Source: Pirellulales bacterium
Lineage (GTDB): Bacteria > Planctomycetota > Planctomycetia > Pirellulales > Lacipirellulaceae
Assembly: GCA_020847515.1 (NCBI GenBank)
Contig: JADLBW010000235.1
Coordinates: forward strand, 1-34,593
Reading direction: 5' to 3'
DNA length: 34,593 bases
Under the pieces are notes generated by a model. That model saw only the letters and a list, made by a program, of their open reading frames with translations, did not search any database and was not told where the DNA came from. Position 1 is the first letter of the stretch. The number at the start of each line of letters is the position of its first letter. Positions 1-16,700 of the stretch are shown piece by piece. The translations under genes and the position numbers were made by a program.

Positions 1-498
1 ACCAACCGCCGGCTCGATGAAGAGGTGGCCGCCGGACGCTTTCGCGAGGATTTGTACTATCGCCTCAATCTCGTCGAGCTGCGGATGCCCCCCCTCCGCC
101 AACGGGTGGCCGATATCCCGTTGTTCATCGACTACTTCTCGCGCAAATTCGCCGAGCGCTACAACCAGCCCGTGTGGCAGCCCAGCGAAACGGCCCTGCA
201 GGCCTTCTGCGAGTACCCCTGGCCGGGCAACGTCCGGCAGCTTAGTTACGTCTTGGAACAGAGCTACGTCCTGCAATGCGAGCCCTCGCTGCCTGGTAAG
301 ACTAGCGTCGACGCCGGCGATCGGTCGCTCCCCTTCACCGATCTCAGTCGGCTGCGACGCGCCGCCGTCGAGCAAGCGCTGCGCAGCGCCGGCGGCCATA
401 AGGGGCGGGCCGCCAAGTTGCTTGGCGTCCACCCCAATACGATGACCCGCCTGCTAGGGCAGCTTCGCGACGCTCCGCCTCCTACCGAGCTGCTGTAA
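1..498 (+). CDS. Sigma-54-dependent transcriptional activator, C-terminal part
   Basis: The window opens inside this gene. The first codons read TNRRLDEEVAAGRFREDLYY, the typical late part of the AAA+ sigma-54 interaction domain. RLNLVELRMPPLRQR and the sensor-like WPGNVRQL follow. The last ~45 residues form a Fis-type helix-turn-helix (AAVEQALRSAGGHKGRAAKL, then a second helix with MTRLL). Proteins of this family bind an upstream enhancer and use ATP to open promoters held by sigma-54 RNA polymerase. The input domain (receiver, PAS or other) lies upstream and cannot be seen, so the signal is unknown. The frame stays open to base 1, so the gene starts outside the window. A strong hairpin follows the stop codon. 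Confidence 0.93.
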   Translation, partial: TNRRLDEEVAAGRFREDLYYRLNLVELRMPPLRQRVADIPLFIDYFSRKFAERYNQPVWQPSETALQAFCEYPWPGNVRQLSYVLEQSYVLQCEPSLPGKTSVDAGDRSLPFTDLSRLRRAAVEQALRSAGGHKGRAAKLLGVHPNTMTRLLGQLRDAPPPTELL

Positions 499-950: not shown

Positions 951-1056
951 ACACCATTTTGGTGAGTCCTCATCATTCTAGTGAAAGAGAGCGGCGGGCC
1001 CTGTTTTCACCGTGCATCTCACACGGCGCGGCAACATCTCCTCACCATCTTGGTGA
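951..1056. promoter_or_regulatory. Three copies of a 15-bp palindromic operator-like site
   Basis: Sites at 951-965 (ACACCATTTTGGTGA), 970-984 (TCATCATTCTAGTGA) and 1042-1056 (TCACCATCTTGGTGA) share the symmetric consensus TCAYCA-NNN-TRGTGA. The third is a perfect 6-3-6 palindrome, and the first is imperfect only at its outermost base. The first two start 19 bp apart and the third 72 bp further on. Clustered short dyads in an AT-rich intergenic patch look like binding sites of a dimeric regulator. The regulator is not identified. The nearest downstream gene starts 238 bp beyond the last site. Confidence 0.5.
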
Positions 1057-1293
1057 ATTGTCGCGATGCGTCCGCCGCTGCCTCAATAGGCGGATAACCG
1101 CAAGCACGCCAAGCGGTTAGACGACCTCGGGCGACGGGCCGGCGCGTCATGGCACGCCGCTCGCTTAAGGGAACCGCCGGCTGATAGTGCGTAGTCGCAG
1201 TTGGCTAGGCCGGTCAGCAGCTAGCGAGTTTTTGTCTGCCGGCGTCGGGGCGTCGAGCCCGGCCGCGGGGACGTCACTTGAAAGGAAAAGCAC

Positions 1294-1473
1294 ATGAGTC
1301 ACATCCAACTCTACGAGCAGGAAGACATGGGCTATGGCGCGGATTCGTTTCGTCGCAAGGAAGACGCGAAACTCGCCAAACGCAACCGTCCGTCGCATGC
1401 TCGTCGCCGTGGCAAGTCGCCGCAATCGGTCAACGGCATACATCGCCGTCGCAATCGCAAAATGAGTTGGTAA
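1294..1473 (+). CDS. Small basic protein (59 aa), first of a related pair
   Basis: ATG preceded by a purine-rich GAAAGGAAAAG ribosome-binding stretch. The 59-residue product begins MSHIQLYEQEDMGYGADSFR and ends GIHRRRNRKMSW. The first third is mildly acidic and the rest very basic, rich in Arg and Lys, with no membrane segment or signal peptide. The ending matches that of the 59-residue protein at 2488-2667. Ungapped, the two share A36, R37, R38, P43, G48, H50, R52, N54, M57 and W59, plus basic residues at 41, 55 and 56. A nucleic-acid or ribosome-binding role would fit the composition, but no function is known to me. The good ribosome-binding site and the conserved tail argue for a real gene despite its size. 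Confidence 0.72.
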   Translation: MSHIQLYEQEDMGYGADSFRRKEDAKLAKRNRPSHARRRGKSPQSVNGIHRRRNRKMSW

Positions 1474-1892
1474 TTCGCCCTCCGCGTCTCGCGACGATTC
1501 GCCGCGCGCGCCCTCTGCGTGCGCCGGACGGTTGTCGACGGGCGCGTGCTTGCGTGCGCCACCGGCGCATAGCTGGCGCTTAGAGTCTCGGCTCGCCCTG
1601 CAACTGCGAGCCGCGGCGCCGGGCAATTTACCAACCGACGCTTTAGTCCAGGCCTGCAAGCTTGGGGTCTGGCGGCGGCGACATCGGCAGGAGTTGAGTC
1701 GCGTCCAAGCGGGCCCAAGGCAGTCAGCCCACGGCTCCGGGCGCTCGATGTGATGAACTTTTCATAGCCGGCGGGCCTGCCCTGCAGGAGCGTCGCGGGT
1801 GGTTGGGCAAGAGCGTGCAACACATGAGATGCAACCGCATGCGGGCGGGCCGCGAGGCTCGTCACGGGCATGCCCCGGAGTAACGCCGCAGC
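1474..1892. other. Non-coding gap
   Basis: About 420 bases between the first small protein and the receiver-like gene. Open frames on either strand are Arg/Ala-rich and show no family resemblance. No clear promoter, repeat or RNA gene is visible. Confidence 0.5.
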
Positions 1893-2429
1893 ATGGCCAT
1901 CGTCAACCGGACATCGAGCGCCGTAGTCGCGCCGCACGGCGAGGCTGCAACGATAGCAGCGCGAACCGCGCCGCCGCAGTTGCTGCGCTGCTTGGTCGTC
2001 TGCATGTCGGCGCAGCGGCGTCGTTTGATCCGGGCCGCGGCCGAAGCGCAGGCCTGGGACGCCATCATTTGCCGGGACGCCGGCGAGTTTTTGCGAGTCG
2101 CCTTCAAGCGGACGGTGCCCCTGGTCGTCGTCGATTTGCCGGCGGAGTGCTCGGCGGAGTATTGGGAGCTGCGGCAGGCGACGCGGAGTGCCAGCCAGGC
2201 CTGTCGGTCGTTGTTTTTTGTAACAGGAACTTCAGCCGATCCGGCGGAGGAGATTTGGGCCCGCGGCATGGGCGTCTGGGCGTACGTCAACGATCTGTGC
2301 GGGCAACGAGGGTTCGAATTGGTGTTGAGTGAAGCTCGCCACGTCGTTTCCCGCGATTGTTCGCTGACGCCGGCATTCCCGGACGCATACGAATTCCCCG
2401 CCGCCGACGGCAGCGAGGGCGACTGGTAA
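1893..2429 (+). CDS. Degenerate response-regulator receiver-like protein
   Basis: A 178-residue protein with the beta/alpha rhythm of a CheY-like receiver from about residue 30 to 145. LLRCLVVCMS is a first strand and WDAIICRDAGEFL a second unit. PLVVVDLP places Asp81 where the phosphoacceptor would be. LFFVTGTS is the fourth strand and GVWAYVN the fifth. The acidic pair after strand 1 is missing (Cys-Met-Ser instead), and Asn replaces the switch Lys, so normal phosphorylation is doubtful. There is no output domain; the tail ends GDW. A GGAG lies 13 bases before the chosen ATG; Met38 is a possible later start. It sits between two related small basic proteins, suggesting one functional unit. 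Receiver fold is inference from pattern only. Confidence 0.6.
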   Translation: MAIVNRTSSAVVAPHGEAATIAARTAPPQLLRCLVVCMSAQRRRLIRAAAEAQAWDAIICRDAGEFLRVAFKRTVPLVVVDLPAECSAEYWELRQATRSASQACRSLFFVTGTSADPAEEIWARGMGVWAYVNDLCGQRGFELVLSEARHVVSRDCSLTPAFPDAYEFPAADGSEGDW

Positions 2430-2487
2430 CCCGCTGTTGGCGTCAATGCCTCGCCAGCGATGCACCGCATGGAAATACACAAGTCAC

Positions 2488-2667
2488 ATGGCCAGCAGGT
2501 CGCTCGAAAACGAAAGCGAGGAAGCGCCTGACGCTGCCGCGGCGCGGACGTCGCCCTCGCGGCAGAACGCCAAGAAGAAGCCGTCTGTCGCTGCTCGCCG
2601 AATTCGGCGCAAGCCAGGCGTCGGCGGCGGAATGCACCTCCGCGCTAACAAGCGAATGAATTGGTAA
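2488..2667 (+). CDS. Small basic protein (59 aa), second of a related pair
   Basis: From ATG 2488 the product is 59 residues, exactly the length of the protein at 1294-1473. It begins MASRSLENESEEAPDAAAAR and ends GGGMHLRANKRMNW. The N-terminal third is acidic/Ala-rich and the rest Lys/Arg-rich. It aligns to the first protein without a gap over its C-terminal 25 residues (A-R-R ... P ... G-x-H-x-R-x-N-basic-basic-M-x-W). In-frame upstream starts exist (TTG 2437, ATG 2446), but the length match favours 2488. A GGAAA lies about 12 bases upstream. It follows the receiver-like gene by 58 bases. Function unknown; a strong hairpin directly follows. Confidence 0.65.
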   Translation: MASRSLENESEEAPDAAAARTSPSRQNAKKKPSVAARRIRRKPGVGGGMHLRANKRMNW

Positions 2668-2850: not shown

Positions 2851-3594
2851 ATGCTTCGACCTGCAATTAAGTCCGCCGCGGCGCTGATCGCGCTGTTGGC
2901 GATCGGATGCCTGGCTGTCGCCGAGACGTCGGCGGCGCTGATCAACCTCACGCCGACGCCCGGCTCCTCCAATTCCGTCAATTCCGTCACCCTCTCGTCG
3001 CTGGTCGGCACGTCCGACGGCATCGTCGTGGGCGACAAGATCTTCACCGGGTTCTCCTACTCCCGCACCGGCGACATGCCGCAGGCCTCGTCCGTCAACG
3101 TGCTGGGCTTCCGCGATCCCGACGGCAACTGGGGCGTCACCTTCCACGGCTCCTTCATCGATCTGCCCGGCGGCGACAATTCCGACGCCTTTATCCGCTT
3201 CATGGTAGCCGTCGATCAGGCTTCGCAATCGGCTGGCTGGCGGATTTCCGACGCCCACCTGTTCCTCAGCGGCGCCGGCGTTGGAGACGACTCGGTATTG
3301 CTCGTCGACGAGTCGTTCCTCGGCCGCAACGAGACGCTGCACACCTTCATCGCCAAGGCGGGCAGCGCGCAGCAGGCCCAATTGCATGACCAGGTGCAAT
3401 TCGACCCCATGTCCAACCAGCTTGTCGTAACCAAGGACATCTTCGCCCGCGCTGCCAATGGCGGCTTCCTGCCGGCGCGTGCGACCGTCATCGATCAGTC
3501 CTTCTCCCAGACGCAGATACCCGAGCCGGCCACGGCGACCATGTTCGGCGTATCCGCCCTGGCCCTGGGTGCGGTCGTCCGGCGACGGAAGTAA
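2851..3594 (+). CDS. PEP-CTERM sorting-domain secreted protein
   Basis: The 247-residue product starts with a signal peptide (MLRPAIKSAAALIALLAIGC, then an AETSA-type cleavage region near residue 28). It ends with a PEP-CTERM signal: PEP at 224-226, a short hydrophobic stretch (MFGVSALALGAVV) and the basic tail RRRK. The middle is a beta-rich, Gly/Asp-rich extracellular domain of no family I recognise. PEP-CTERM proteins are recognised by an exosortase at the membrane and usually end up at the cell surface or in the exopolysaccharide matrix. No exosortase gene is in the window. The gene is solitary, between the small-protein group and the convergent trpC, and is followed by two hairpins. Confidence 0.85.
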   Translation: MLRPAIKSAAALIALLAIGCLAVAETSAALINLTPTPGSSNSVNSVTLSSLVGTSDGIVVGDKIFTGFSYSRTGDMPQASSVNVLGFRDPDGNWGVTFHGSFIDLPGGDNSDAFIRFMVAVDQASQSAGWRISDAHLFLSGAGVGDDSVLLVDESFLGRNETLHTFIAKAGSAQQAQLHDQVQFDPMSNQLVVTKDIFARAANGGFLPARATVIDQSFSQTQIPEPATATMFGVSALALGAVVRRRK

Positions 3595-3850: not shown

Positions 3851-4636
3851 CTAGCGCCCCAGCAGCCGGTCTACCGCGACGCCAATATTCGGCTCGCGCA
3901 TTAGCGACTCGCCCACGAGCATCGCCTGCACGCCGGCCGCCGCCAGCCGCTCTACGTCGGCGCGGCTCTTGATGCCGCTCTCGCTCACCATCACGCACTC
4001 CGCCGGCATCCGCGCGCGCAGCCGCAACGAGTGCTCCAGATCGACCGTAAACGATCGCAGATCGCGGTTATTGACGCCCACCAGCGCCGCCCCCGCCGCC
4101 AGCACCCGGTCCAGGTTCTCCGGATCGTAGAGCTCCACCAGCGGCGTCATGCCCAGTTCGAGCGCCTGATTATGGAGACCGCGAATACGGCAGTCGTCCA
4201 GTCATTCGGCGATCAGCAGCACCGCGTCGGCCCCCGCGGCTCGAGCTTCTAAAAGCTGATAGCCCTCCAGAATAAAATCCTTGCGCAGCACTGGCGCCGC
4301 CACAGCCTCGCGGACGGCCGTCAAGTACTCCAGCCGACCTTGAAAATACGGTTCGTCCGTAAGCACGCTGATGCAACTGGCGCCGTGGTCAGCGTAAATG
4401 CGAGCGATCCGCACCGGGTCGAAATCTGCACAGATCACGCCGGCCGACGGGCTGGCCTTCTTCACTTCGGCGATCAGGCGCACCGGGCCCGGTTCGGCCA
4501 GCGCCGCAAAAAAGTCTCGCACCGGCGGCGCGTCGGCGAGCCGCCGCAGCAGCTCGCGCTCCGGCACGCGCTGCTGGCGTTCGGCAACTTCACGCCGCTT
4601 CGTCGCGACGATTCTATCGAGGATCGTTTCGGCCAT
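3851..4636 (-). pseudogene. trpC: Indole-3-glycerol-phosphate synthase, interrupted by an in-frame TGA
   Basis: The enzyme converts carboxyphenylaminodeoxyribulose phosphate to indole-3-glycerol phosphate in tryptophan synthesis. Residues 1-144 run from [20 protein letters not shown] to AVLLIAE and carry [12 protein letters not shown] (Glu57, Lys59, Ser62), LRKDF (Lys119) and the catalytic Glu144. Codon 145 is TGA (4202-4204). The same frame continues LDDCRIRGLHNQALELGMTP and then shows VGVNNRDL and SESGI, the remaining substrate-binding motifs. Without the stop the protein would be a normal 261 residues, with nothing shifted or missing. A TGC/TGG/CGA-to-TGA change or a base-calling error are the simplest explanations. 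Neither half should be active alone: the N-terminal piece lacks the last three barrel strands. Confidence 0.9.
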
Positions 4637-4682
4637 AGCAGCATTCTAGCCTCCCCGCTGCAGCGCTTCGAGATCGTCCCCC

Positions 4683-4883
4683 ATGGCCAGGGCCCGATCA
4701 ACGCCTTCAATTGGGAGAGTGCGTGCCATGTCCACGTCCGCGTGGACATGCTTACTCTCCGGCAAATCACGTCCGCGCCGACATGCTTGCTTTCCTGCAA
4801 ATCAGTGCCGCGATGGCAAACCTCCGCCTCCATCGCGCCCGACCGAGCTTGAAGATGCGATCGGCGCTGAGCCCCGGTCGCTA
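4683..4883. mobile_element. Multi-hairpin repeat element, copy A (MITE/REP-like)
   Basis: Lies between the divergent trpC and DUF1570 genes. Its ends are inverted relatives of each other: CCAGGGCCCGATCA..CTTCAA at 4687-4710, and on the other strand GGGGC..CCGATC..CTTCAAG at 4848-4877. Inside is a palindrome at 4727-4750 with 10-bp arms CATGTCCACG / CGTGGACATG. From within it start two abutting 35-bp direct repeats (4735-4769, 4770-4804) that I count as identical at 30 of 35 positions. A further perfect hairpin follows (CGCGATGG 4809-4816 / CCATCGCG 4830-4837). No transposase is encoded. A second copy with the same end and palindrome sequences lies at 7812-8022. The boundaries are approximate. 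Confidence 0.6.
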
Positions 4884-4998
4884 AGGTCGTCGGCTCGCCT
4901 AACTCTGGTGTAGACTATAGAACAGCCGCGCCCCGCGCTATCGCGGCCAGCTCGCAACATGAGTCGGCGTTCGTCTAGAGCCCAGGGACGACCACTAC

Positions 4999-6147
4999 AT
5001 GCAACTTCACCGCAGCTATCTCCGCCGGACGATGCTCCTGGCCGCTCTAGCGTGGCCCGCCGCCTCGGCCGCGGCGCTGGAGCACTTGACGATCGATTCG
5101 CCCCGCGGCGACGACGAGCAGATTTCCGGCGAGGCCCTCGTCGAGGCCCAGGACGGCGGGCTGCTGCTGAAGACCCCCGACGGCGCCCTGCGGCGGCTGC
5201 CCGCCGCTACGATTCGCAGCCGAAGCTCCGACGACAAGCCGCTCGTCCCGCTTAACGACGAGCAGCTTGCCGAGAAGCTGCTCGCCGAGTTGCCGCCCGA
5301 TTTCCGCATTCATCAGTCCAAGAACTACATCGTCGCGTACAACACCAGCCGCACCTACGCCGAGTGGACCAGTTCGCTGCTGGAGCGACTGCAGCGGGCC
5401 TTCATCGCCTACTGGAAGCGGGAGGGATGCCCCGTCGCCGCGCCCGCTCAGCCCCTGATGGTGCTGGTGTTCGCCGACCAGGCGTCTTACGCCTCCTACG
5501 CGAAAAAGGACCTTGGCAGCGCCGTCGGCAACGTCATCGGCTACTACAATCTCGAAACCAACCGCATCATGATGTACGACCTCACCGGCATGCAGGCCTT
5601 CGGCGGCAGCCGCGGGTCGCTGCACGACATCACCGCGCTGCTTTCCAAGCCCGCCGCCGAGCCGCTCGTGGCGACCATCGTCCACGAGGCCACGCACCAG
5701 ATCGCCTTCAACTGCGGCCTGCAGAAGCGGCTTGTCGACAACCCCTATTGGCTCAGCGAGGGGCTGGCGACCTATTTTGAGACCCCCGATCTGTCCAGCT
5801 CGCGCAGTTGGAGCGGCATCGGCAACGTGAACTACAGCCGCTGGGATCTTTTCCGCGAGAACTACCACGCCGGCAAGACCGTGCCGCTGAAGCGCCTCGT
5901 GGCCGACGACAAGCTGTTTCAATCCCCAGCGACGGCGGTCGACGCCTACGCCCAGGCCTGGGCCTGGAACTACTTCCTCATCCGCTGGAGGCCCAAGCAG
6001 TATGCCGCCTACCTGAAGGCGCTCGCCGCCAAGCCGCTGCTCCTTGAAGATTCGCCGGCGAAGCGCGTCCAACAGTTCCGCGATCAGTTCGGCGAGCTGG
6101 ATGAATTGGAAAGCGAATTCTATCGCCGCATGGCCCGCGTCAAATAG
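4999..6147 (+). CDS. Secreted DUF1570-type zinc peptidase-like protein
   Basis: A 382-residue protein. An Arg-containing start plus hydrophobic stretch (MLLAALAWPAASAAA) makes a signal peptide, so it should act outside the cytoplasm. After a small beta-rich N-terminal region (to ~80), a domain from about 105 to 380 carries the zincin motif HEATH (His229-Glu230-His233). LSEGLATYFE supplies a candidate third zinc ligand at Glu254. This arrangement matches the DUF1570 family, common in planctomycetes and presumed to be metallopeptidases; no substrate is known. It stands alone, divergent from trpC and convergent with xylB, whose stop lies 11 bases away. Confidence 0.8.
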   Translation: MQLHRSYLRRTMLLAALAWPAASAAALEHLTIDSPRGDDEQISGEALVEAQDGGLLLKTPDGALRRLPAATIRSRSSDDKPLVPLNDEQLAEKLLAELPPDFRIHQSKNYIVAYNTSRTYAEWTSSLLERLQRAFIAYWKREGCPVAAPAQPLMVLVFADQASYASYAKKDLGSAVGNVIGYYNLETNRIMMYDLTGMQAFGGSRGSLHDITALLSKPAAEPLVATIVHEATHQIAFNCGLQKRLVDNPYWLSEGLATYFETPDLSSSRSWSGIGNVNYSRWDLFRENYHAGKTVPLKRLVADDKLFQSPATAVDAYAQAWAWNYFLIRWRPKQYAAYLKALAAKPLLLEDSPAKRVQQFRDQFGELDELESEFYRRMARVK

Positions 6148-6158
6148 CCGGCGCCCAC

Positions 6159-7682
6159 TTACGCCTCTCCCAACCGCCGAAACTCCTCCCGCAACGCACC
6201 ATACAAGCCTTGAAATATCGGAAACAACCGGTCGTACGCCTTGCGGGCCTGGGCCTGGGGCTTGCTGCCGTCGGCGACTTGCACCGTGGCGGCGCACGCC
6301 TCCGAGATGTTCTTGTAGTGTCCGGCGCCCACCGCCGCCAGCAGCGCCACGCCGTAGGCTGGCCCCTCGTCGGCCGCCATGCCATGCACGGCCTTGCCGA
6401 ATACGTCGGCCTGCATCTGCCGCCAGAACCGGTTCTTCGACCCGCCCCCCCCGGCCCGCACCTGCTTTACCGGCACGCCAAGCCCTTCGATGATCGCCAG
6501 GCTGTCCCGCAGCGCGAACGTCACCCCTTCCATGATCGCCCGCACGACGTGGCCGCGGGTGTGGGCCAGCGTGATGCCCACCAGGGCCCCGCGGGCCCGC
6601 GGATCCAGATGCGGCGTCCGTTCGCCCGCCAAATAGGGCAAGAACTGCAGCCCCTCGGCCCCCGTCGGCGTGGCGGCGGCTTCGCTGCACAACTGCTCGA
6701 AGCTGATCGACGACTTCTTCCCGTTCTTTCCGACTGAGCTGCACATCGCATCTTGGAACCATTGCAGCGAGCCCCCGGCCGACAGCACTACGCCCATCAT
6801 GTGCCATTTTCCCCGCACCGCATGGCAGAACGTGTGCAGTCGCCCCTGCGGATCGAACTGCGGCTGATCGCTATGCACGAACACCACGCCGGAGGTGCCG
6901 ATCGACGTGGCCAGCAGACCCGGCTTCACGATGCCGTTGCCCACGGCCCCGGCGGCACAATCGCCGGCGCCGCCTACCACTTGGCACGCGGTTGTCAGCC
7001 CCAGCAGCTTGGCCGCCTCGGGGGTCAGCGTGCCGGTCGCCTCCTCTGATTCGTAACAGCGGGGCAACAGCTCGCCGTCAAGCTCCAATTTCTCCAGCAG
7101 CTTCGTCGACCAGCGGCGGTTCACCACGTCCAACAGCAGCGTGCCGCTGGCATCGCTCACTTCGCTGGCGAGCTCGCCAGGGAGCCGCCGGCGGATTTCA
7201 TCCTTCGGCAATAGCACCTTCGCCGTCCGTGCGAAGTTCCGCGGCTCGTGGTTTCGCAGCCACAAGATTTTCGGCGCCGTGAATCCCGTCAGCGCCGGGT
7301 TGGCGACCAACTGGATGAGCGCTGCCCGCCCCCCGGCCCGCGACTCGATCTCGTCGCACTCGGCCGCCGTGCGCTGGTCGTTCCATAGGATCGCCGGCCG
7401 AATCACCCGGCCCGACTTGTCGAGAAACACCGAGCCGTGCATCTGTCCCGAGAGGCCGATGGCCGCGACGTCGGCGGCCTTCAGCTTTGCCTGCTTGACC
7501 ACCTGGCGGACGGTCTTGACGGTCGCCCGCCACCAGTCCTCCGGGTCCTGTTCGCTCCACAACGGCCGCGGATGGGCACAAGGATAGCCCGCGCTGGCCG
7601 AGGCCAAGATCCGCCCGTCCGGTGCGATCGCCAGCGCCTTGGTCCCCGAGGTGCCCACGTCGATGCCAATCAAAGCCGCCAT
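6159..7682 (-). CDS. xylB: Xylulokinase
   Basis: This 507-residue FGGY-family kinase phosphorylates D-xylulose with ATP to xylulose 5-phosphate, feeding the pentose phosphate pathway. Visible features are the N-terminal phosphate-binding MAALIGIDVGTSGTKAL, GLSGQMHGSVFLD and ILWNDQRTAAEC (substrate side). EVSDASGTLLLDV, GGAGDCAAGAVGNG with the catalytic-type Asp, and the C-terminal RAGGGGSKNRFWRQMQADVF (adenine site) follow. LSGQMHG and SDASGT point to xylulokinase rather than glycerokinase. Length is normal. No xylose isomerase or transporter is adjacent, although a sugar-type solute-binding lipoprotein is divergently encoded. A multi-hairpin repeat fills the upstream space. Confidence 0.92.
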   Translation of the reverse strand: MAALIGIDVGTSGTKALAIAPDGRILASASAGYPCAHPRPLWSEQDPEDWWRATVKTVRQVVKQAKLKAADVAAIGLSGQMHGSVFLDKSGRVIRPAILWNDQRTAAECDEIESRAGGRAALIQLVANPALTGFTAPKILWLRNHEPRNFARTAKVLLPKDEIRRRLPGELASEVSDASGTLLLDVVNRRWSTKLLEKLELDGELLPRCYESEEATGTLTPEAAKLLGLTTACQVVGGAGDCAAGAVGNGIVKPGLLATSIGTSGVVFVHSDQPQFDPQGRLHTFCHAVRGKWHMMGVVLSAGGSLQWFQDAMCSSVGKNGKKSSISFEQLCSEAAATPTGAEGLQFLPYLAGERTPHLDPRARGALVGITLAHTRGHVVRAIMEGVTFALRDSLAIIEGLGVPVKQVRAGGGGSKNRFWRQMQADVFGKAVHGMAADEGPAYGVALLAAVGAGHYKNISEACAATVQVADGSKPQAQARKAYDRLFPIFQGLYGALREEFRRLGEA

Positions 7683-9884: not shown

Positions 9885-11129
9885 ATGATTCGAAGCGCCG
9901 AAGACGACCAGCGGATTGTCATCACCGGCATCGGGCTGACCGCGCCCAACGGCGATACCCTGGCCGATTACCGCGCCGCACTGCTCGCCGGGCGCAGCGG
10001 CGTCGAGCCCTACACGATCCGGTATGTCGGCGACACCCTTGCCGGGGTCTGCCATTACGACGAACTGAAATACCAGAACCGCCGCGACGTCCGCCGCGGC
10101 ACCCGCGCCGGCAGCATCGGCATCTACTGCGCCCGCGAGGCGGTCGCCGATTCGGGCGTCGACTGGGATCGGATCAACCCTGAAACGGTCGGCGTCTACG
10201 TCGGCGTCACCGAGCACGGCAACGTCGAGACCGAAAACGAGATCTACGAGATCACCCAGTTCAATTACGACACCAAGGTCTGGTCCCACCACCACAACCC
10301 CCGCACGGTGGCCAACAATCCCGCCGGCGAGATCACGCTCAACATGGGGATCACCGGTCCCCATTATACGATCGGCGCGGCCTGCGCCGCCGGTAACGCC
10401 GGGCTGATCCAAGGCGCGCAAATGCTCCTGCTGCACGAGTGCGATTTCGCCATCGCCGGCGGCGTCTCGGAGAGCATCCGCACCTTCGGCATCTTCGCCG
10501 GCTTTGCCAGCCAGGGCGCCCTGGCCGCCCACGCCGACCCCGCCAAGGCCTCTCGCCCCTTCGACCGCGGCCGCAACGGCATCGTCGTCTCCGAGGGCGG
10601 TTGTCTGTACGCCCTCGAGCGCTACAGCGACGCCGCCCGACGCGGAGCGAAGATTTACGGCGAGCTGGTCGGCTACTCGATGACCAGCGACGCCACCGAC
10701 TTCGTCTTGCCGAACCCTGTGCAGCAATCCCGCTGCATGGAGCAGGCCCTGCGCCGCGCCGGCCTCAACGCCGAGGACGTCGACGTCCTCAGCACCCACG
10801 CCACCGCCACCCCCAGCGGCGACGTGCAGGAGTGCCAGGCGATCCGCCGCGTCTTCGGCGGCTCGAACCGCACCCGAATCAACAACACCAAGAGCTTCAT
10901 CGGCCACGCCATGGGCGCCGCCGGATCGCTGGAGCTCGCCGGCAACCTGCCGGCGTTCGACGACGGCGTCTGCCACGCCACGATCAACGTCGACGACCTC
11001 GACCCCGAATGCGCATTGCCGGGCTTAGTATTGAATGAACCCCAAGAGACCGCGGGAGTGAACTATATCCTCAACAACTCTTTCGGCATGCTCGGCATCA
11101 ACTCGGCCGTAATCATCAAGCGAGTGTAA
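9885..11129 (+). CDS. Beta-ketoacyl-ACP synthase (KAS II / FabF-like)
   Basis: A 414-residue thiolase-fold condensing enzyme that would join an acyl group to malonyl-ACP. The catalytic set is complete: Cys167 in GAACAAGNAG, His305 in STHATATPSGD, Lys336 in NTKSFIGH and His341. The usual SFGFGG glycine loop near the C-terminus reads NSFGMLGIN, and the Asn-His-Gly around the first His reads Ser-Thr-His-Ala. Both changes suggest a specialised synthase rather than the housekeeping FabF. It is the first gene of a cluster with an ACP, two FAD oxidoreductases, a FabZ and a FabI on the same strand. ATG 9885 gives the family's normal N-terminus (IVITGIGLTAPNGD). Confidence 0.93.
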   Translation: MIRSAEDDQRIVITGIGLTAPNGDTLADYRAALLAGRSGVEPYTIRYVGDTLAGVCHYDELKYQNRRDVRRGTRAGSIGIYCAREAVADSGVDWDRINPETVGVYVGVTEHGNVETENEIYEITQFNYDTKVWSHHHNPRTVANNPAGEITLNMGITGPHYTIGAACAAGNAGLIQGAQMLLLHECDFAIAGGVSESIRTFGIFAGFASQGALAAHADPAKASRPFDRGRNGIVVSEGGCLYALERYSDAARRGAKIYGELVGYSMTSDATDFVLPNPVQQSRCMEQALRRAGLNAEDVDVLSTHATATPSGDVQECQAIRRVFGGSNRTRINNTKSFIGHAMGAAGSLELAGNLPAFDDGVCHATINVDDLDPECALPGLVLNEPQETAGVNYILNNSFGMLGINSAVIIKRV

Positions 11130-11163
11130 CTCAGATCGACAACCACACGACGGATGCGGCGGA

Positions 11164-11310
11164 AGACGAAGAGAAGCAACCGCTGATAAACGCTAACAGG
11201 CGCTGATATCCCCCGCGCACATAGGTGCGTTGACGCTGCAGGCGATGTTTCCTAAACAATCGCTGATCCGCGCAAATCAGCGTTCATCAGCGGTTCCTCG
11301 TAGTTCTATT
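11164..11310. repeat. Inverted repeat at the KAS-ACP junction
   Basis: The left arm contains AACCGCTGATAAACGCT (11178-11194) and the right arm AGCGTTCATCAGCGGTT (11279-11295), complementary at 16 of 17 positions. Weaker pairing extends outward (GACGAA-AGAA on both sides) and inward. Within each arm CGCTGAT/CGCT words recur in tandem. It fills the 214-base junction, so the transcript would carry a long stem-loop before the ACP start. Confidence 0.7.
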
Positions 11311-11343
11311 CGTCGTTCGTCACGAATCCGCATAGGGACAGAC

Positions 11344-11604
11344 ATGACCAGAGATCAAATTCGCGAAGAAGTCCTCGACATCCTCAGCGACATCGCTCCT
11401 GACGAAGACCTGTCGAGTCTCAAGGATGATCAGAGCTTCCGCGAGCAGCTCGAACTCGACAGCATGGACTTCCTCGACATCGTCATGGAGCTCCGCAAGC
11501 GCCACCGCATTCAGATTCCGGAGGACGACTACATGAACCTCCGCAGCATGGACTCGACCGTCAGCTACCTCGAGCCCCTGATGAAGGACATTCAGAAGGT
11601 CTAG
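11344..11604 (+). CDS. Acyl carrier protein
   Basis: 86 residues from ATG 11344 (MTRDQIREEVLDILSDIAPD). The phosphopantetheine attachment site is Ser40 in LELDSMDFLDIV, with the usual Asp before it and Met rather than Leu after. The protein is acidic and helical throughout, normal ACP length. The frame is open upstream to 11230, but that stretch lies in the junction repeat and is not ACP-like. In this cluster it would hold the acyl chain for the neighbouring KAS, dehydratase and reductase. Its stop codon is immediately followed by another inverted repeat. Confidence 0.92.
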   Translation: MTRDQIREEVLDILSDIAPDEDLSSLKDDQSFREQLELDSMDFLDIVMELRKRHRIQIPEDDYMNLRSMDSTVSYLEPLMKDIQKV

Positions 11605-11605
11605 A

Positions 11606-11681
11606 GCTGGATGCTGAATGCCGGTCGCTTGATGCGTGATGGCACTATGGAAAATTTACCATCCAGCGACCAGCATCCAGC
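11606..11681. repeat. Inverted repeat at the ACP-oxidoreductase junction
   Basis: Left arm GCTGGATGCTG (11606-11616) plus GGTCGCTTGATG (11623-11634). The right arm, 11659-11681, contains CCATCCAGCGACC and AGCATCCAGC. The arms pair well apart from a 6-base insertion on the left. The left arm starts 2 bases after the ACP stop. The start codon of the next gene is in the loop, and the right arm is translated. Confidence 0.65.
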
Positions 11682-13074
11682 GTCAGGTTCCTACGACGTC
11701 CTCATCATCGGCGCCGGCATGAGCGGCTTGGCCGCCGGCATCCGCCTGGCCTATTACGATCAGCGGGTCTGCATCCTCGAACGCCACTGGACCATTGGCG
11801 GGCTCAACTCCTTCTACCGTCTCCGCGGCCGCGATTACGACGTCGGGCTGCACGCCATCACCAATATCACGCCCAAAGGCGCTAAGCGCGGGCCGCTCGC
11901 CCGCCTCCTCCGCCAACTTCGCCTTACCTGGGACGAGCTGGCCATCTCGCCGCAGATCGGCTCGGAGATCGCCTTTCCCGGCGTGCGGCTCAGGTTCAGC
12001 AATGAGCTTGATCTGCTCCGCTCCGAGATCCACCGCGCCTTCCCCGACCAGCGCGACAACTTTGAACGCCTCGTCGAAGCCGTCATCCAGTACGACGACC
12101 TCGATGAAACCCACGCCGCCCAGTCCGCCCGCTTGCGGCTAAGCGAGCTGATCACTGAACCGCTGCTTGTTGAAATGCTCCTCTGCCCGCTGATGTTCTA
12201 CGGCTCAGCCCGCGAGCAGGACATGGACTGGGGCCAGGTCTCGATCATGTTCCGCAGCATCTTCATGGAAGGCCTCGGCCGCCCGCACGCCGGCGTGCGG
12301 CTCATCCTCAAGCAACTTGTGCGCAAGTTCCGCTCCCTGGGCGGAGAGCTGCGGCTCCGCTCGGGAGTCGAGCGGCTTCATGTCGACCAGGGCCGCGTTG
12401 TCGGCGTTACGCTGGAAAGCGGCGAGACTCTCGAGGCCAGGCGGGTTCTCTCGTCAGCCGGCTGGCTGGAGACGATGCGCCTTTGCGACGACGGCCAAGC
12501 CGTGCCGGCGCAGCGCCCGCCGGGACGCCTCAGCTTTTGCGAGACGATCGCCACGCTCGACGTGGAGCCCAAGCGCCTCGGCTACGACCGCACGATCACC
12601 TTCTTCAACGATTGGGAGCGGTTTGATTGGCGGGAGTCCCAGGCCCCCTGCGACGCCCGCAGCGGCGTCGTCTGCAGCCCGAATAACTTCGACTACGACT
12701 CGCCCCTCGACAAAGACGGCGCCGGCGTCGTTCGGATTACGGCCCTGGCCAACCACGACTACTGGCGCTCCCTCGACGACGATGCGTACCGCCTCGAAAA
12801 GCTCCGCTGGTACGATCGGATCGCTACTTCGGCCGTGCGATTCATCCCCGACTACCGCGGCCGCGTCGTCGACGCCGACATGTTCACCCCCAAGACGATC
12901 GTCCGCTTCACCGGCCATGAAAACGGCGCCATTTACGGCGCCCCCGACAAGCAGCTCGACGGCCGAACCCACCTCGACAACCTCTTTATCTGCGGGACCG
13001 ACCAGGGCTTCGTCGGCATCATCGGCGCCATCACCAGCGGCATCAGCATGGCCAACATGCACTGCCTCAAATAG
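11647..13074 (+). CDS. CrtI/phytoene-desaturase-like FAD-dependent oxidoreductase (first)
   Basis: About 475 residues. A Rossmann dinucleotide site at 22-27 (VLIIGAGMSGLAAG), then ILERHWTIGGLNS and YDVGLHAI, the pattern of the amine oxidase/phytoene desaturase superfamily. The C-terminal FAD-sealing motif is LFICGTDQGFVGIIGAITSG. The family oxidises, reduces or isomerises C-C bonds in long hydrophobic chains, using FAD. ACP- and FabZ-linked members suggest acyl-chain rather than carotenoid substrates here; this is inference. Start: ATG 11647 is the last ATG before the Rossmann strand; ATG 11611 is also in frame. Residues 5-13 (PSSDQHPAS) are encoded by the right arm of the junction repeat, so this N-terminus was probably acquired from the repeat. 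Confidence 0.87.
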   Translation: MENLPSSDQHPASGSYDVLIIGAGMSGLAAGIRLAYYDQRVCILERHWTIGGLNSFYRLRGRDYDVGLHAITNITPKGAKRGPLARLLRQLRLTWDELAISPQIGSEIAFPGVRLRFSNELDLLRSEIHRAFPDQRDNFERLVEAVIQYDDLDETHAAQSARLRLSELITEPLLVEMLLCPLMFYGSAREQDMDWGQVSIMFRSIFMEGLGRPHAGVRLILKQLVRKFRSLGGELRLRSGVERLHVDQGRVVGVTLESGETLEARRVLSSAGWLETMRLCDDGQAVPAQRPPGRLSFCETIATLDVEPKRLGYDRTITFFNDWERFDWRESQAPCDARSGVVCSPNNFDYDSPLDKDGAGVVRITALANHDYWRSLDDDAYRLEKLRWYDRIATSAVRFIPDYRGRVVDADMFTPKTIVRFTGHENGAIYGAPDKQLDGRTHLDNLFICGTDQGFVGIIGAITSGISMANMHCLK

Positions 13075-13083
13075 CCGCAGGAT

Positions 13084-13107
13084 AGCCGCGGCTCAACGAG
13101 CCGCCGG
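13084..13107. repeat. 24-bp hairpin repeat, copy 1 (3' end of first oxidoreductase)
   Basis: GCGGCTC-AAC-GAGCCGC stem-loop, 10 bases after the stop codon, with flanks AGCC and CGG. An identical 24-bp copy lies after the FabI gene at 16717-16740, and both are preceded by TAGCCGCA at the stop codon. The 3'-end position of both copies suggests a terminator or transcript-end element; no T-run. Confidence 0.65.
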
Positions 13108-13133
13108 CGCCGCCTTCAATGCCAACCCTCCCT

Positions 13134-13163
13134 TTGGACCCTAACCAGCGCGCCTGCTATAGT
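13134..13163 (+). promoter_or_regulatory. Sigma-70-type promoter of the toxin-antitoxin pair
   Basis: TTGGAC (13134-13139), an 18-base spacer and TATAGT (13158-13163), 20 bases before the antitoxin ATG, with GGAGGA between. It would give the toxin-antitoxin pair its own transcription inside the lipid cluster. Confidence 0.5.
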
Positions 13164-13183
13164 TGCATCGGAGGAAGTCCGCC

Positions 13184-13450
13184 ATGGCCACCGATTTCAG
13201 AGCTGAACTGAGCGAAGCCGAACTGCTGCACCTCTACCTGGAGCGTCGCTTCGAGAAGGGCCAACGCGGCGGCACGCTTGACGACGTGATGGCCGGCTTC
13301 GCCGAGTACCGCCGGCAGTTGAAAAGAATACGCGAATTGGTCCGCGAGGCCGAGGAATCTTTTGCGCGGTTTGGCTCACAACCGCTGGACCTCGATGCGA
13401 TGTGGGCAGAACTCGATCTCCAATTCGACGCCGAAGGGATTCCAGAATAA
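13184..13450 (+). CDS. Probable antitoxin of a ParE-type toxin-antitoxin pair
   Basis: 88 residues from ATG 13184, preceded by a near-perfect GGAGGA ribosome-binding site 8-13 bases upstream. The product (MATDFRAELSEAELLHLYLE and on) is acidic and helical, with a likely coiled segment around RRQLKRIRELVREAEESFAR and an acidic C-terminus. I recognise no named antitoxin domain. The call rests on size, charge and position: its stop overlaps the ATG of a RelE/ParE-like gene by one base (TAATG), the usual translational coupling of such pairs. The toxin is broken while this gene is intact. Confidence 0.6.
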   Translation: MATDFRAELSEAELLHLYLERRFEKGQRGGTLDDVMAGFAEYRRQLKRIRELVREAEESFARFGSQPLDLDAMWAELDLQFDAEGIPE

Positions 13451-13803
13451 TGTCCCGGGCGATGTGGACCGCCGAGGCTCGTCGCGATTTAGAGACCCTC
13501 GCAGAATTTATCGTACATCGCGATGGTCGACGGCGAACGGCTCGCCAGATCACCCGCGAAATCCGCGACAAGTGCGACCATTAGGCCCGCTTCCCGCTAA
13601 CGGCAACCGCACGGCCGGAATTCGGCGAAGACATTCGCATCTTCGCACACAAGCGTTGGGTAGTGCTCTTCCGACCGACCCATAACGGCATCAAGATCCT
13701 GCGAGTCTTCGACGGCAGCCAGGATTACGAAAGTCTCTACTGCGCAGCGCAGGATTCCGGCCAGGTTGCGGCTACTAAATCGAATCGACAAGCGATACGT
13801 TAG
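13450..13803 (+). pseudogene. RelE/ParE-family toxin with in-frame TAG
   Basis: The frame begins MSRAMWTAEARRDLETLAEF IVHRD, typical of the ParE first helices. Codon 45 is TAG (13582-13584). The same frame continues ARFPLTATARPEFGEDIRIF, then [20 protein letters not shown] and [12 protein letters not shown], the beta-sheet core and the conserved late region of the fold. Read through, the product would be 117 residues, a normal size. Only one base need differ (TTG, CAG or AAG to TAG). The 44-residue remnant lacks the active sheet. Loss of the toxin with retention of the antitoxin is a common fate. The second oxidoreductase starts 5 bases after its end. Confidence 0.82.
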
Positions 13804-13807
13804 TAGC

Positions 13808-15253
<1,446 letters not shown>

Positions 15254-15259
15254 AGAAAC

Positions 15260-15358
15260 CTCTCGCAGAGACGCAGAGACGCAGAAATTTGAAGAACAAC
15301 GGAACGTTGTAACGCGCTCGTTCTATCCTTACTCTGCGTCTCCGCGCCTCTGCGAGAG
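15260..15358. repeat. Inverted repeat at the oxidoreductase-FabZ junction
   Basis: 26-base arms 15260-15285 and 15333-15358, complementary except for two positions, separated by 47 bases. Each arm has a short-period inner repeat (CGCAGAGACGCAGAGACGCA on the left). It fills the 115-base junction completely. Confidence 0.82.
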
Positions 15359-15368
15359 ATCATTGAAC

Positions 15369-15818
15369 ATGTCGTTAGAAAGAATTAAAGCCGCCATCCC
15401 TCATCGCGAGCCGTTCTTGCTCATCGACGAGATTGTTGAGCAGAGCGATTCTCGCATCCTCTGCCGGAAGACCTTCACCGGCGACGAGTTCTGGTATCGC
15501 GGCCATTACCCCGATTACCCGATCACACCGGGCGTAATCCTCTGCGAAGCGGCCATGCAGGCCGGCGCCGCGCTGCTCTCGAAGCTCGTCGCCGAGCAGA
15601 CAGATTCCGTCCCTGTCGCCACGCGGGCCAACAACGTCCAGTTCAAGCAGATGGTGCTCCCCGGCGATACGATCGACCTGGAAGTCGAGCTGACCGAACG
15701 CCTCTCGACGGCCTTCTTCATGAAGGCCAAAGTCACAGTAAAGGGCAAAGTCGCCTGTCGCTTCGACTTCGCCTGCACCCTGGCGCCCACGAAAGCACCA
15801 ATGACCAAGCACCAATGA
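15369..15818 (+). CDS. FabZ-type 3-hydroxyacyl-ACP dehydratase
   Basis: 149 residues with the hot-dog-fold dehydratase signature: IPHREPFLLID near the start, then RGHYPDYPITPGVILCEAAM with catalytic His46 and Glu60, and NNVQFKQMVLPGDTIDLEVE. It removes water from 3-hydroxyacyl-ACP to give trans-2-enoyl-ACP, the substrate of the FabI-like gene next door. Chosen start ATG 15369 (MSLERIKAAIP); a TTG two codons earlier is possible. The last residues, PMTKHQ and the stop, are encoded by the left arm of a perfect inverted repeat, so the normal C-terminus has been replaced or extended by repeat DNA. Confidence 0.92.
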   Translation: MSLERIKAAIPHREPFLLIDEIVEQSDSRILCRKTFTGDEFWYRGHYPDYPITPGVILCEAAMQAGAALLSKLVAEQTDSVPVATRANNVQFKQMVLPGDTIDLEVELTERLSTAFFMKAKVTVKGKVACRFDFACTLAPTKAPMTKHQ

Positions 15819-15866
15819 CCAAGGTCGCGTGGCCAGCCCTGTTGGTCATTGGTGCTTGGTCATTGG
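15798..15866. repeat. Perfect 25-bp inverted repeat at the FabZ-FabI junction
   Basis: Arms 15798-15822 and 15842-15866 are perfect reverse complements with a 19-base loop. Each arm is itself two near-copies of CCAATGACCAAG. The left arm contains the last six codons and the stop of the dehydratase gene. As RNA it would be a very stable stem ending 18 bases before the FabI start. Confidence 0.93.
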
Positions 15867-15884
15867 CAATTTACCATTCACGCC

Positions 15885-16700
15885 ATGCCCGACTTCCTTC
15901 AACTCGCCGGCCGGCGCATCGCCGTCTTCGGCGTCGCCAATCGCAAGAGCGTCGCCTGGCATGCGGCCCAGGTCCTCCGTGAGGCCGGCGCCGAGGTCGT
16001 CTACGTCGTCCGCTCGCCCCAGCGCCAGGCCTCCGTCGCCAGGCTCATCGGCGACGCTCCGCTCTACGTCTGCGACGTCGAACGCCAGGACCAGATCGAC
16101 CGCCTCGCCGAGCGGCTCGCCGCTGACTTCGGCAAGTTCCACGGCCTGGTCCACTCGATCGCGTTCGCCGCCTACGACCAACGCGGCATGCGCCCCTTCC
16201 ACGAAACCAGCCGCGAGCAACTGCTGCGCACCTTCGACGTCTCCTGCTTCTCGCTCATCGCCCTGTCCAGCGCCCTGAAAGACCAGTTCGCCCGCGACGC
16301 CTCGGTAGTGACGATCTCCATTTCCACCACCCGCATGGCCAGCGAAAACTACGGCTTCATGGCCCCCGTAAAGGCGGCGCTCGATTCCAGCCTCGCCTTC
16401 CTCGCCAAGTCGTTCAGCCAGTTCTCGGAGGTCCGCTTCAACGCCGTCGCCCCCGGTCTGCTGAAGACCAGCGCCTCGGCCGGCATCCCCGGCTACGTCG
16501 ATTCATACCTCTTCGCCCAGCGCGCCACCCTCCGCGGCCGCGCGGTTCAAACCGAAGAAGTAGCCAACGCCGTAGCGTTCCTCCTCAGCCCCCGCTCCAG
16601 CGGCGTCAACGCCCAGCGCCTGGTCATCGACGCCGGCATGGAAACCAACTACTTCGACCCCCGCCTGGTAAAGCCCGCCGTCGATGCGCTCTCCAAGTAG
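15885..16700 (+). CDS. fabI: Enoyl-ACP reductase, FabI-type
   Basis: 271 residues, an atypical short-chain dehydrogenase. The FabI-style N-terminus is [31 protein letters not shown] and the Tyr-x6-Lys pair Tyr156/Lys163 (NYGFMAPVK), [14 protein letters not shown] and a late GMETNY follow. It reduces trans-2-enoyl-ACP with NAD(P)H, the last step of an elongation cycle. The residue ten before the active Tyr, Tyr in E. coli FabI, appears to be Ile here. Start ATG 15885 follows the junction repeat; TTG 15849 in frame lies in the repeat and is unlikely. It is the last gene of the lipid cluster. It may be a second, cluster-specific FabI or the only one; the window cannot tell. Confidence 0.9.

Follow-up and report, generated by a model that had tools for sequence, protein, structure and literature searches.

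A probable sigma-54-dependent operon joining two small basic proteins, a pseudo-receiver and presumed exosortase cargo in Pirellulales

The window analysed here is a stretch of 34,593 nucleotides from a genome that is 69% complete and belongs to the same genus as Lacipirellula limnantheis. Three of its genes, encoding the small basic protein A, a pseudo-receiver and the small basic protein B, may form the core of a sigma-54-dependent operon for exosortase (PEP-CTERM) cargo, in which A and B serve as regulators or handling factors. For this chain as a whole we consider the arguments for and against to be evenly balanced. The operon itself, leaving aside any role for A and B, is very probably real. 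Gene content, gene order, promoter, enhancers, selection and folds are established from the sequence (Table 1). The sequence-only reading had taken positions 1294-2667 as the unit. Its trio was retained, but its limits were too narrow, with the promoter and enhancers lying upstream and the PEP-CTERM gene downstream, and it had noted neither the sigma-54 promoter nor the dedicated activator nor the connection with PEP-CTERM. Rfam and tRNA scans of the whole window gave no matches.

Table 1. Features of the module in the window
Feature	Position	Strand	Remarks
Receiver-less sigma-54 enhancer-binding protein, 3' part	1-498	+	AAA+ lid and Fis-type HTH; cut by contig start
Enhancer palindrome ACACCATTTTGGTGA	951-965	.	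11/12 to TCACCANNNTGGTGA; -199 from promoter
Enhancer palindrome TCATCATTCTAGTGA	970-984	.	10/12 to TCACCANNNTGGTGA; -180 from promoter
Enhancer palindrome TCACCATCTTGGTGA	1042-1056	.	12/12 to TCACCANNNTGGTGA; -108 from promoter
Sigma-54 promoter TGGCACGCCGCTCGCT	1150-1165	+	-24 GG / -12 GC
Small basic protein A	1294-1473	+	59 aa, ends GIHRRRNRKMSW
Pseudo-receiver protein	1893-2429	+	178 aa; AlphaFold, Foldseek receiver matches, alignment of homologues
Small basic protein B	2488-2667	+	59 aa from ATG 2488, ends GMHLRANKRMNW; C-terminus paralogous to A
Putative PEP-CTERM (exosortase-sorted) secreted protein, presumed cargo	2851-3594	+	247 aa; weak PEP-CTERM matches, synteny

The window was compared with a family set of 43 Lacipirellulaceae genomes (22 loci) and with 37 loci from other families. 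Absence of the module was called from profile searches of assemblies, many of which are incomplete. In Lacipirellulaceae the genes follow the order receiver-less sigma-54 activator, A, pseudo-receiver, B, PEP-CTERM gene. The order A, pseudo-receiver, B is kept in 20 of the 22 loci and is accompanied by one conserved sigma-54 promoter. The earlier suggestion that the trio is one small unit is thus borne out; that this unit is regulatory is what we infer. The pairing of a pseudo-receiver with an A-like gene recurs elsewhere in the order, the pseudo-receiver usually lying directly upstream. The pseudo-receiver profile matched 109 of 296 Pirellulales genomes at E 1e-6, some 102 of these being strong matches, and neither an A relative nor a pseudo-receiver relative was found in 392 genomes sampled for each from the phylum outside Pirellulales. 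Outside the family, about 31 of the 37 loci carry an A-like gene or fusion; four (L140, L145, L150 and L152) carry the pseudo-receiver but no recognised A, and two (L146 and L147) are cut by contig ends. In the assemblies compared, the pseudo-receiver, the A-like protein and the promoter with its enhancers recur jointly across many Pirellulales families.

The promoter listed in Table 1 is the sole site in the window that combines a promoter score of at least 18.3 with enhancers. Each of the 22 Lacipirellulaceae loci has a site resembling TGGCACGNNNNTCGCT upstream of A, and the TCACCANNNTGGTGA palindromes, its presumed enhancers, stand about 105 and 175-199 bases above the promoter in two to three phased copies. 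A promoter with at least one enhancer was found in 22/22 family loci and in 30/37 other-family loci, about five of these 30 having a weak or oddly placed promoter-like site, as against 19 of 450 control stretches handled alike. Several other-family loci showed no detectable enhancer. A genome-wide search with the enhancer palindrome alone, allowing one mismatch, was too unspecific to define a regulon. When enhancer-promoter pairs were searched for within the family, the recurrent match was the module itself, and the remaining matches look like chance or isolated cases.

Two sites outside the module are worth recording. At about 5063-5561 of locus L191 a sigma-54 promoter and an enhancer-like palindrome lie upstream of a FabZ-like gene; the scan found no such site at the window homologue of that gene (15369-15818). 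At about 5058-5240 of locus L190 (minus strand; genome G009), where the other module genes are absent, a lone gene with a strong sigma-54 promoter and a weak enhancer match encodes a basic protein of 60 residues (MQTYANHAF...GRRGRRWGW). This protein is perhaps a further, diverged member.

The activator copy in the window matches Pfam AAA_lid_14 and HTH_8. Its full-length relatives are about 330 residues long and contain GAFTGA; the one at locus L059 matches Sigma54_activat (PF00158) at 223 bits and HTH_8 at 33 bits and has no receiver. A close homologue of the activator, scoring above 400 bits where all other activators score about 240-280, was found in all 11 genomes tested that bear the module and in 2 of the 25 tested that do not (Fisher 1e-7, kinship ignored). 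This Fisher value, like the one for exosortase below, overstates the significance because the genomes compared are kin and hence not independent. Close homologues in other families show 60-68% identity, and where the homologue does not adjoin the module it sits elsewhere in the genome, in trans. Each of the 11 genomes tested for rpoN has one such gene. The activator would bind the TCACCANNNTGGTGA palindromes and open the promoter, and one transcript running through the PEP-CTERM gene would allow A, the pseudo-receiver, B and the cargo to be made together. PspF, which is controlled by PspA, is a receiver-less enhancer-binding protein regulated in trans. The module activator likewise lacks a sensory domain of its own, and by analogy its candidate partner would differ, being the pseudo-receiver and/or A and B. 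Two genomes (G137 and G155) have the activator homologue without a detected pseudo-receiver, which reflects either module loss or assembly gaps. At four Lacipirellulaceae loci (L059, L064, L075 and L076, at about 5-8 kb) LpxD- and LpxI-like genes were recognised by eye upstream of the activator.

The pseudo-receiver has a predicted receiver (beta-alpha)5 fold (AlphaFold with 32 homologues, mean pLDDT 94), and its Foldseek matches are response-regulator receivers with TM scores of about 0.7-0.8. The observation that the middle protein lacks the acidic pair and the switch Lys holds across the alignment, with S/T/A and P/S/N in their place in nearly all of the 32 sequences; at the phospho-acceptor position, where beta3 ends, 29 of them have Asp. 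This protein is not expected to act as a normal phospho-switch. E97, W99, A100, R101, G104 and W106, in the alpha4-beta5 region, are invariant or nearly so. The pseudo-receiver would serve as an adaptor, not as a switch, through the conserved E-x-W-A-R-Q-x-G-x-W-x-Y-L-P surface at alpha4-beta5, the usual output face. No ordinary receiver match was obtained in Pfam. The VpsR domain PF20161 matched weakly in 6/32 sequences at E <= 0.01 (4.5e-5 for the strongest), and the protein of the window is far below the cut-off. In VpsR a degenerate receiver domain is fused to the AAA+ domain. The two cases are alike in that a receiver-like domain is linked with NtrC-type activators, but the pseudo-receiver is a separate protein and most of its members have no PF20161 match.

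A and B align without gaps, as the sequence-only reading had described, over 59 columns, with 27% of positions identical (single-pair E 5e-5). The described change from an acidic or neutral N-terminus to a basic remainder was also found, with a net charge of -4 over residues 1-18 in both and then +14 in A and +13 in B. The last 12 residues of B score 44 (BLOSUM62) against the A ending, the next best among 627 window ORFs scoring 19, and the A-family and B-family profiles match only in their last 19 columns (E 1e-8). Since the endings stand out in this way among the 627 ORFs and the profile match lies in the last 19 residues, the relationship between A and B is one of their C-termini. Their common length of 59 residues is correct for the window but coincidental, because B varies from 55 to 72 residues in relatives (A from 58 to 62); an alternative TTG start at 2437 would give a B of 76 residues. 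The proposed shared ending G-x-H-x-R-x-N-(K/R)-(K/R)-M-x-W likewise describes related endings in the window, but M-x-W is strict in neither family: position -3 of A varies among M, L and I, and the final Trp is gone in several B relatives (endings NRRSS, HSR and RTHL).

A is present in 40 of the 43 Lacipirellulaceae genomes. Of the three without it, one is small (2.8 Mb), another is 66% complete, and in the third the contig ends 142 bases away from the pseudo-receiver. B is present in 20 of the 22 loci. The conservation of the A frames in these relatives leaves the earlier proposal unrefuted on the point of missing homologues or broken frames. Among 16 relatives, the last 21 codons of A show a pN of 0.084 against a pS of 0.65, which agrees with the claim of selection on the C-terminus; in the first 38 codons 76% of synonymous and 34% of non-synonymous sites differ. 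Both A and B are real protein-coding genes on which purifying selection acts. Neither matches Pfam or NCBIfam, as would be expected if they were chance ORFs in GC-rich DNA. This explanation is refuted by the conserved frames, the excess of synonymous substitution, the synteny and the plausible ribosome-binding sites that precede most A starts. TIGR04137 is a small basic protein family of Verrucomicrobia and Chlamydiae; A and B resemble it as very small basic proteins of the same superphylum and differ in lacking any NCBIfam match. A PDB profile match of A to IceA2 (E 0.011) involved three NGIHKR repeats only and was judged to be chance.

The conservation of A climbs toward the C-terminus and reaches the stop codon, as it might in a regulatory leader peptide on which the ribosome stalls near the stop codon to control downstream translation. 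All three stop codons are in use, however, the fusions described below read through the A ending, the final Trp is often absent from B, and the 420-nt stretch between A and the pseudo-receiver gene, checked for a conserved RNA element, showed no sequence conservation. We consider a leader peptide very unlikely. A bias in stop codons, taken as a sign of stalling when TGA was seen in 0 of 16 sequences, was discarded, since TGA occurs once more sequences are counted.

In the predicted structure of A (mean pLDDT 64) residues 46-58 form a helix. Most of A and B is taken to be disordered, apart from a basic helix at the C-terminus (NGIHRRRNRKMSW in A, for which the helix was predicted). A strongly basic, Arg-rich, helix-forming C-terminus would also suit nucleic-acid-binding proteins, of the nucleoid or of RNA, that share the operon only incidentally. 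Against this, G, H and W, together with N in A, are kept as exact residues beyond mere charge, the pseudo-receiver accompanies these proteins near-strictly, and the A domain is fused to secreted proteins. Nucleic-acid binding is, in our judgement, quite improbable. A and B would most likely be partners of the adaptor, and the binding targets proposed here are putative. Together with the adaptor they would tune the activator, or couple the synthesis of the cargo to its handling.

The putative PEP-CTERM protein of the window scores slightly under the cut-offs of both models (PF07589, 18.2 versus 20.7 bits; TIGR02595, 14.6 versus 16 bits). By eye, its C-terminus consists of IPEP, a hydrophobic stretch and RRRK, and relatives carry PEP-CTERM genes at the same place. 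A PEP-CTERM ORF was found no more than 3.6 kb downstream in 16/22 family loci and 15/37 others, compared with 1.8% of control positions. These downstream cargos fall into 10 unrelated clusters. No PEP-CTERM gene was detected at two Botrimarina loci that have A and the pseudo-receiver (L076 and L077), or at several other-family loci. Outside the family, exosortase was found in 58/61 module-bearing and 132/192 module-less genomes (Fisher 6e-6, kinship ignored). In several genera of one family (f7), PEP-CTERM proteins that contain a formylglycine-generating-enzyme-like domain carry the A domain as a fusion ahead of their signal peptide. That the A domain is attached to the preproteins at their cytoplasmic N-terminus fits a coupling of synthesis to handling. 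The evidence as a whole fits both roles of A and B, tuning of the activator and handling of the cargo.

It is worth considering a reading in which A and B are purely export-handling factors, their basic C-terminal helix docking at the inner membrane or translocon and helping to deliver PEP-CTERM preproteins, with the pseudo-receiver as a structural partner. In the f7 fusions the signal peptide follows immediately on the A domain, the junction RWTWGSGRG being conserved, the predicted basic helix contains Ile and Trp, and in some f7 loci a signal peptidase I-like gene (by eye only) lies upstream of the pseudo-receiver. On the other hand, most A genes do not adjoin the cargo gene but open the operon or come immediately after the pseudo-receiver, the co-occurrence partner is a transcription activator, and A and B have no apparent hydrophobic membrane segment. 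This reading is doubtful, though it is the strongest of the alternatives weighed here. A further reading, which we regard as unlikely, is that the pseudo-receiver recognises the G-I-H-x-R-x-N-K-R-x-x-W peptide as a tag in the cytoplasm, and that free A and B or tagged, unexported preproteins report the export status to the activator.

Some further observations were made in passing. Locus L143 has three A-like small ORFs (4556-7149), two of which come right after the pseudo-receiver and a PEP-CTERM-like gene and the third further on, which suggests that they were duplicated together with cargo genes. In the window, trpC (3851-4636) contains an in-frame TGA at 4202-4204 (minus strand) where the relative at L069 has Cys (AE*LDD versus AECLDD); this could be an error of the draft genome or a real nonsense change. 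By eye, the genes at 9885-16700 (a ketoacyl synthase, an acyl carrier protein, two FAD oxidoreductases, and FabZ-like and enoyl-reductase-like genes) read like a fatty-acid or polyene-type pathway.

Sigma-54 promoters with enhancer sites were described before proteobacterial PEP-CTERM genes, together with the PrsK, PrsR and PrsT proteins, by Haft et al. 2006 (PMC1569441). Their table lists no PrsK/R/T for Rhodopirellula baltica; they anticipated the discovery of further regulators and, in 2006, explicitly left open the control of PEP-CTERM/exosortase genes outside Proteobacteria. The module shares with that system a -24/-12 sigma-54 promoter, repeated activator sites upstream and an AAA+ activator with a Fis-type HTH. 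It differs in its palindrome, in the position of the promoter, which precedes A and is not immediately in front of the cargo gene, and in having a separate pseudo-receiver plus the small proteins A and B. Against the PrsR model TIGR02915, the full-length activator relatives at L059 and L066 score 260 and 267 bits versus a cut-off of 502.6, and since the match begins at model position 140-141 the activator lacks the receiver part of PrsR. The module resembles PrsK/PrsR control in its logic but not in its parts, and is not a member of the PrsK/PrsR/PrsT system: its activator has no receiver and scores half the PrsR cut-off. In the portion of the report on Aquincola tertiaricarbonis considered here (PMC9850573), transcription of pepA is RpoN-dependent, from a TGGCAC promoter. 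The window PEP-CTERM protein partly matches the PepA model, but far below the cut-off, and proteins like A and B go unmentioned in that portion. Searches of open-access papers brought up no account of A, B or the pseudo-receiver.

A and B add two more families of proteins of fewer than 75 residues that are absent from Pfam and NCBIfam. Were the tag read by the pseudo-receiver and the export status reported in this way, exosortase cargo would be subject to a novel form of export-coupled feedback. Within one planctomycete order, three protein families without a curated model travel together with a promoter, an enhancer sequence and a candidate activator, and the module thereby offers components that can be tested directly, as well as a regulon marker.
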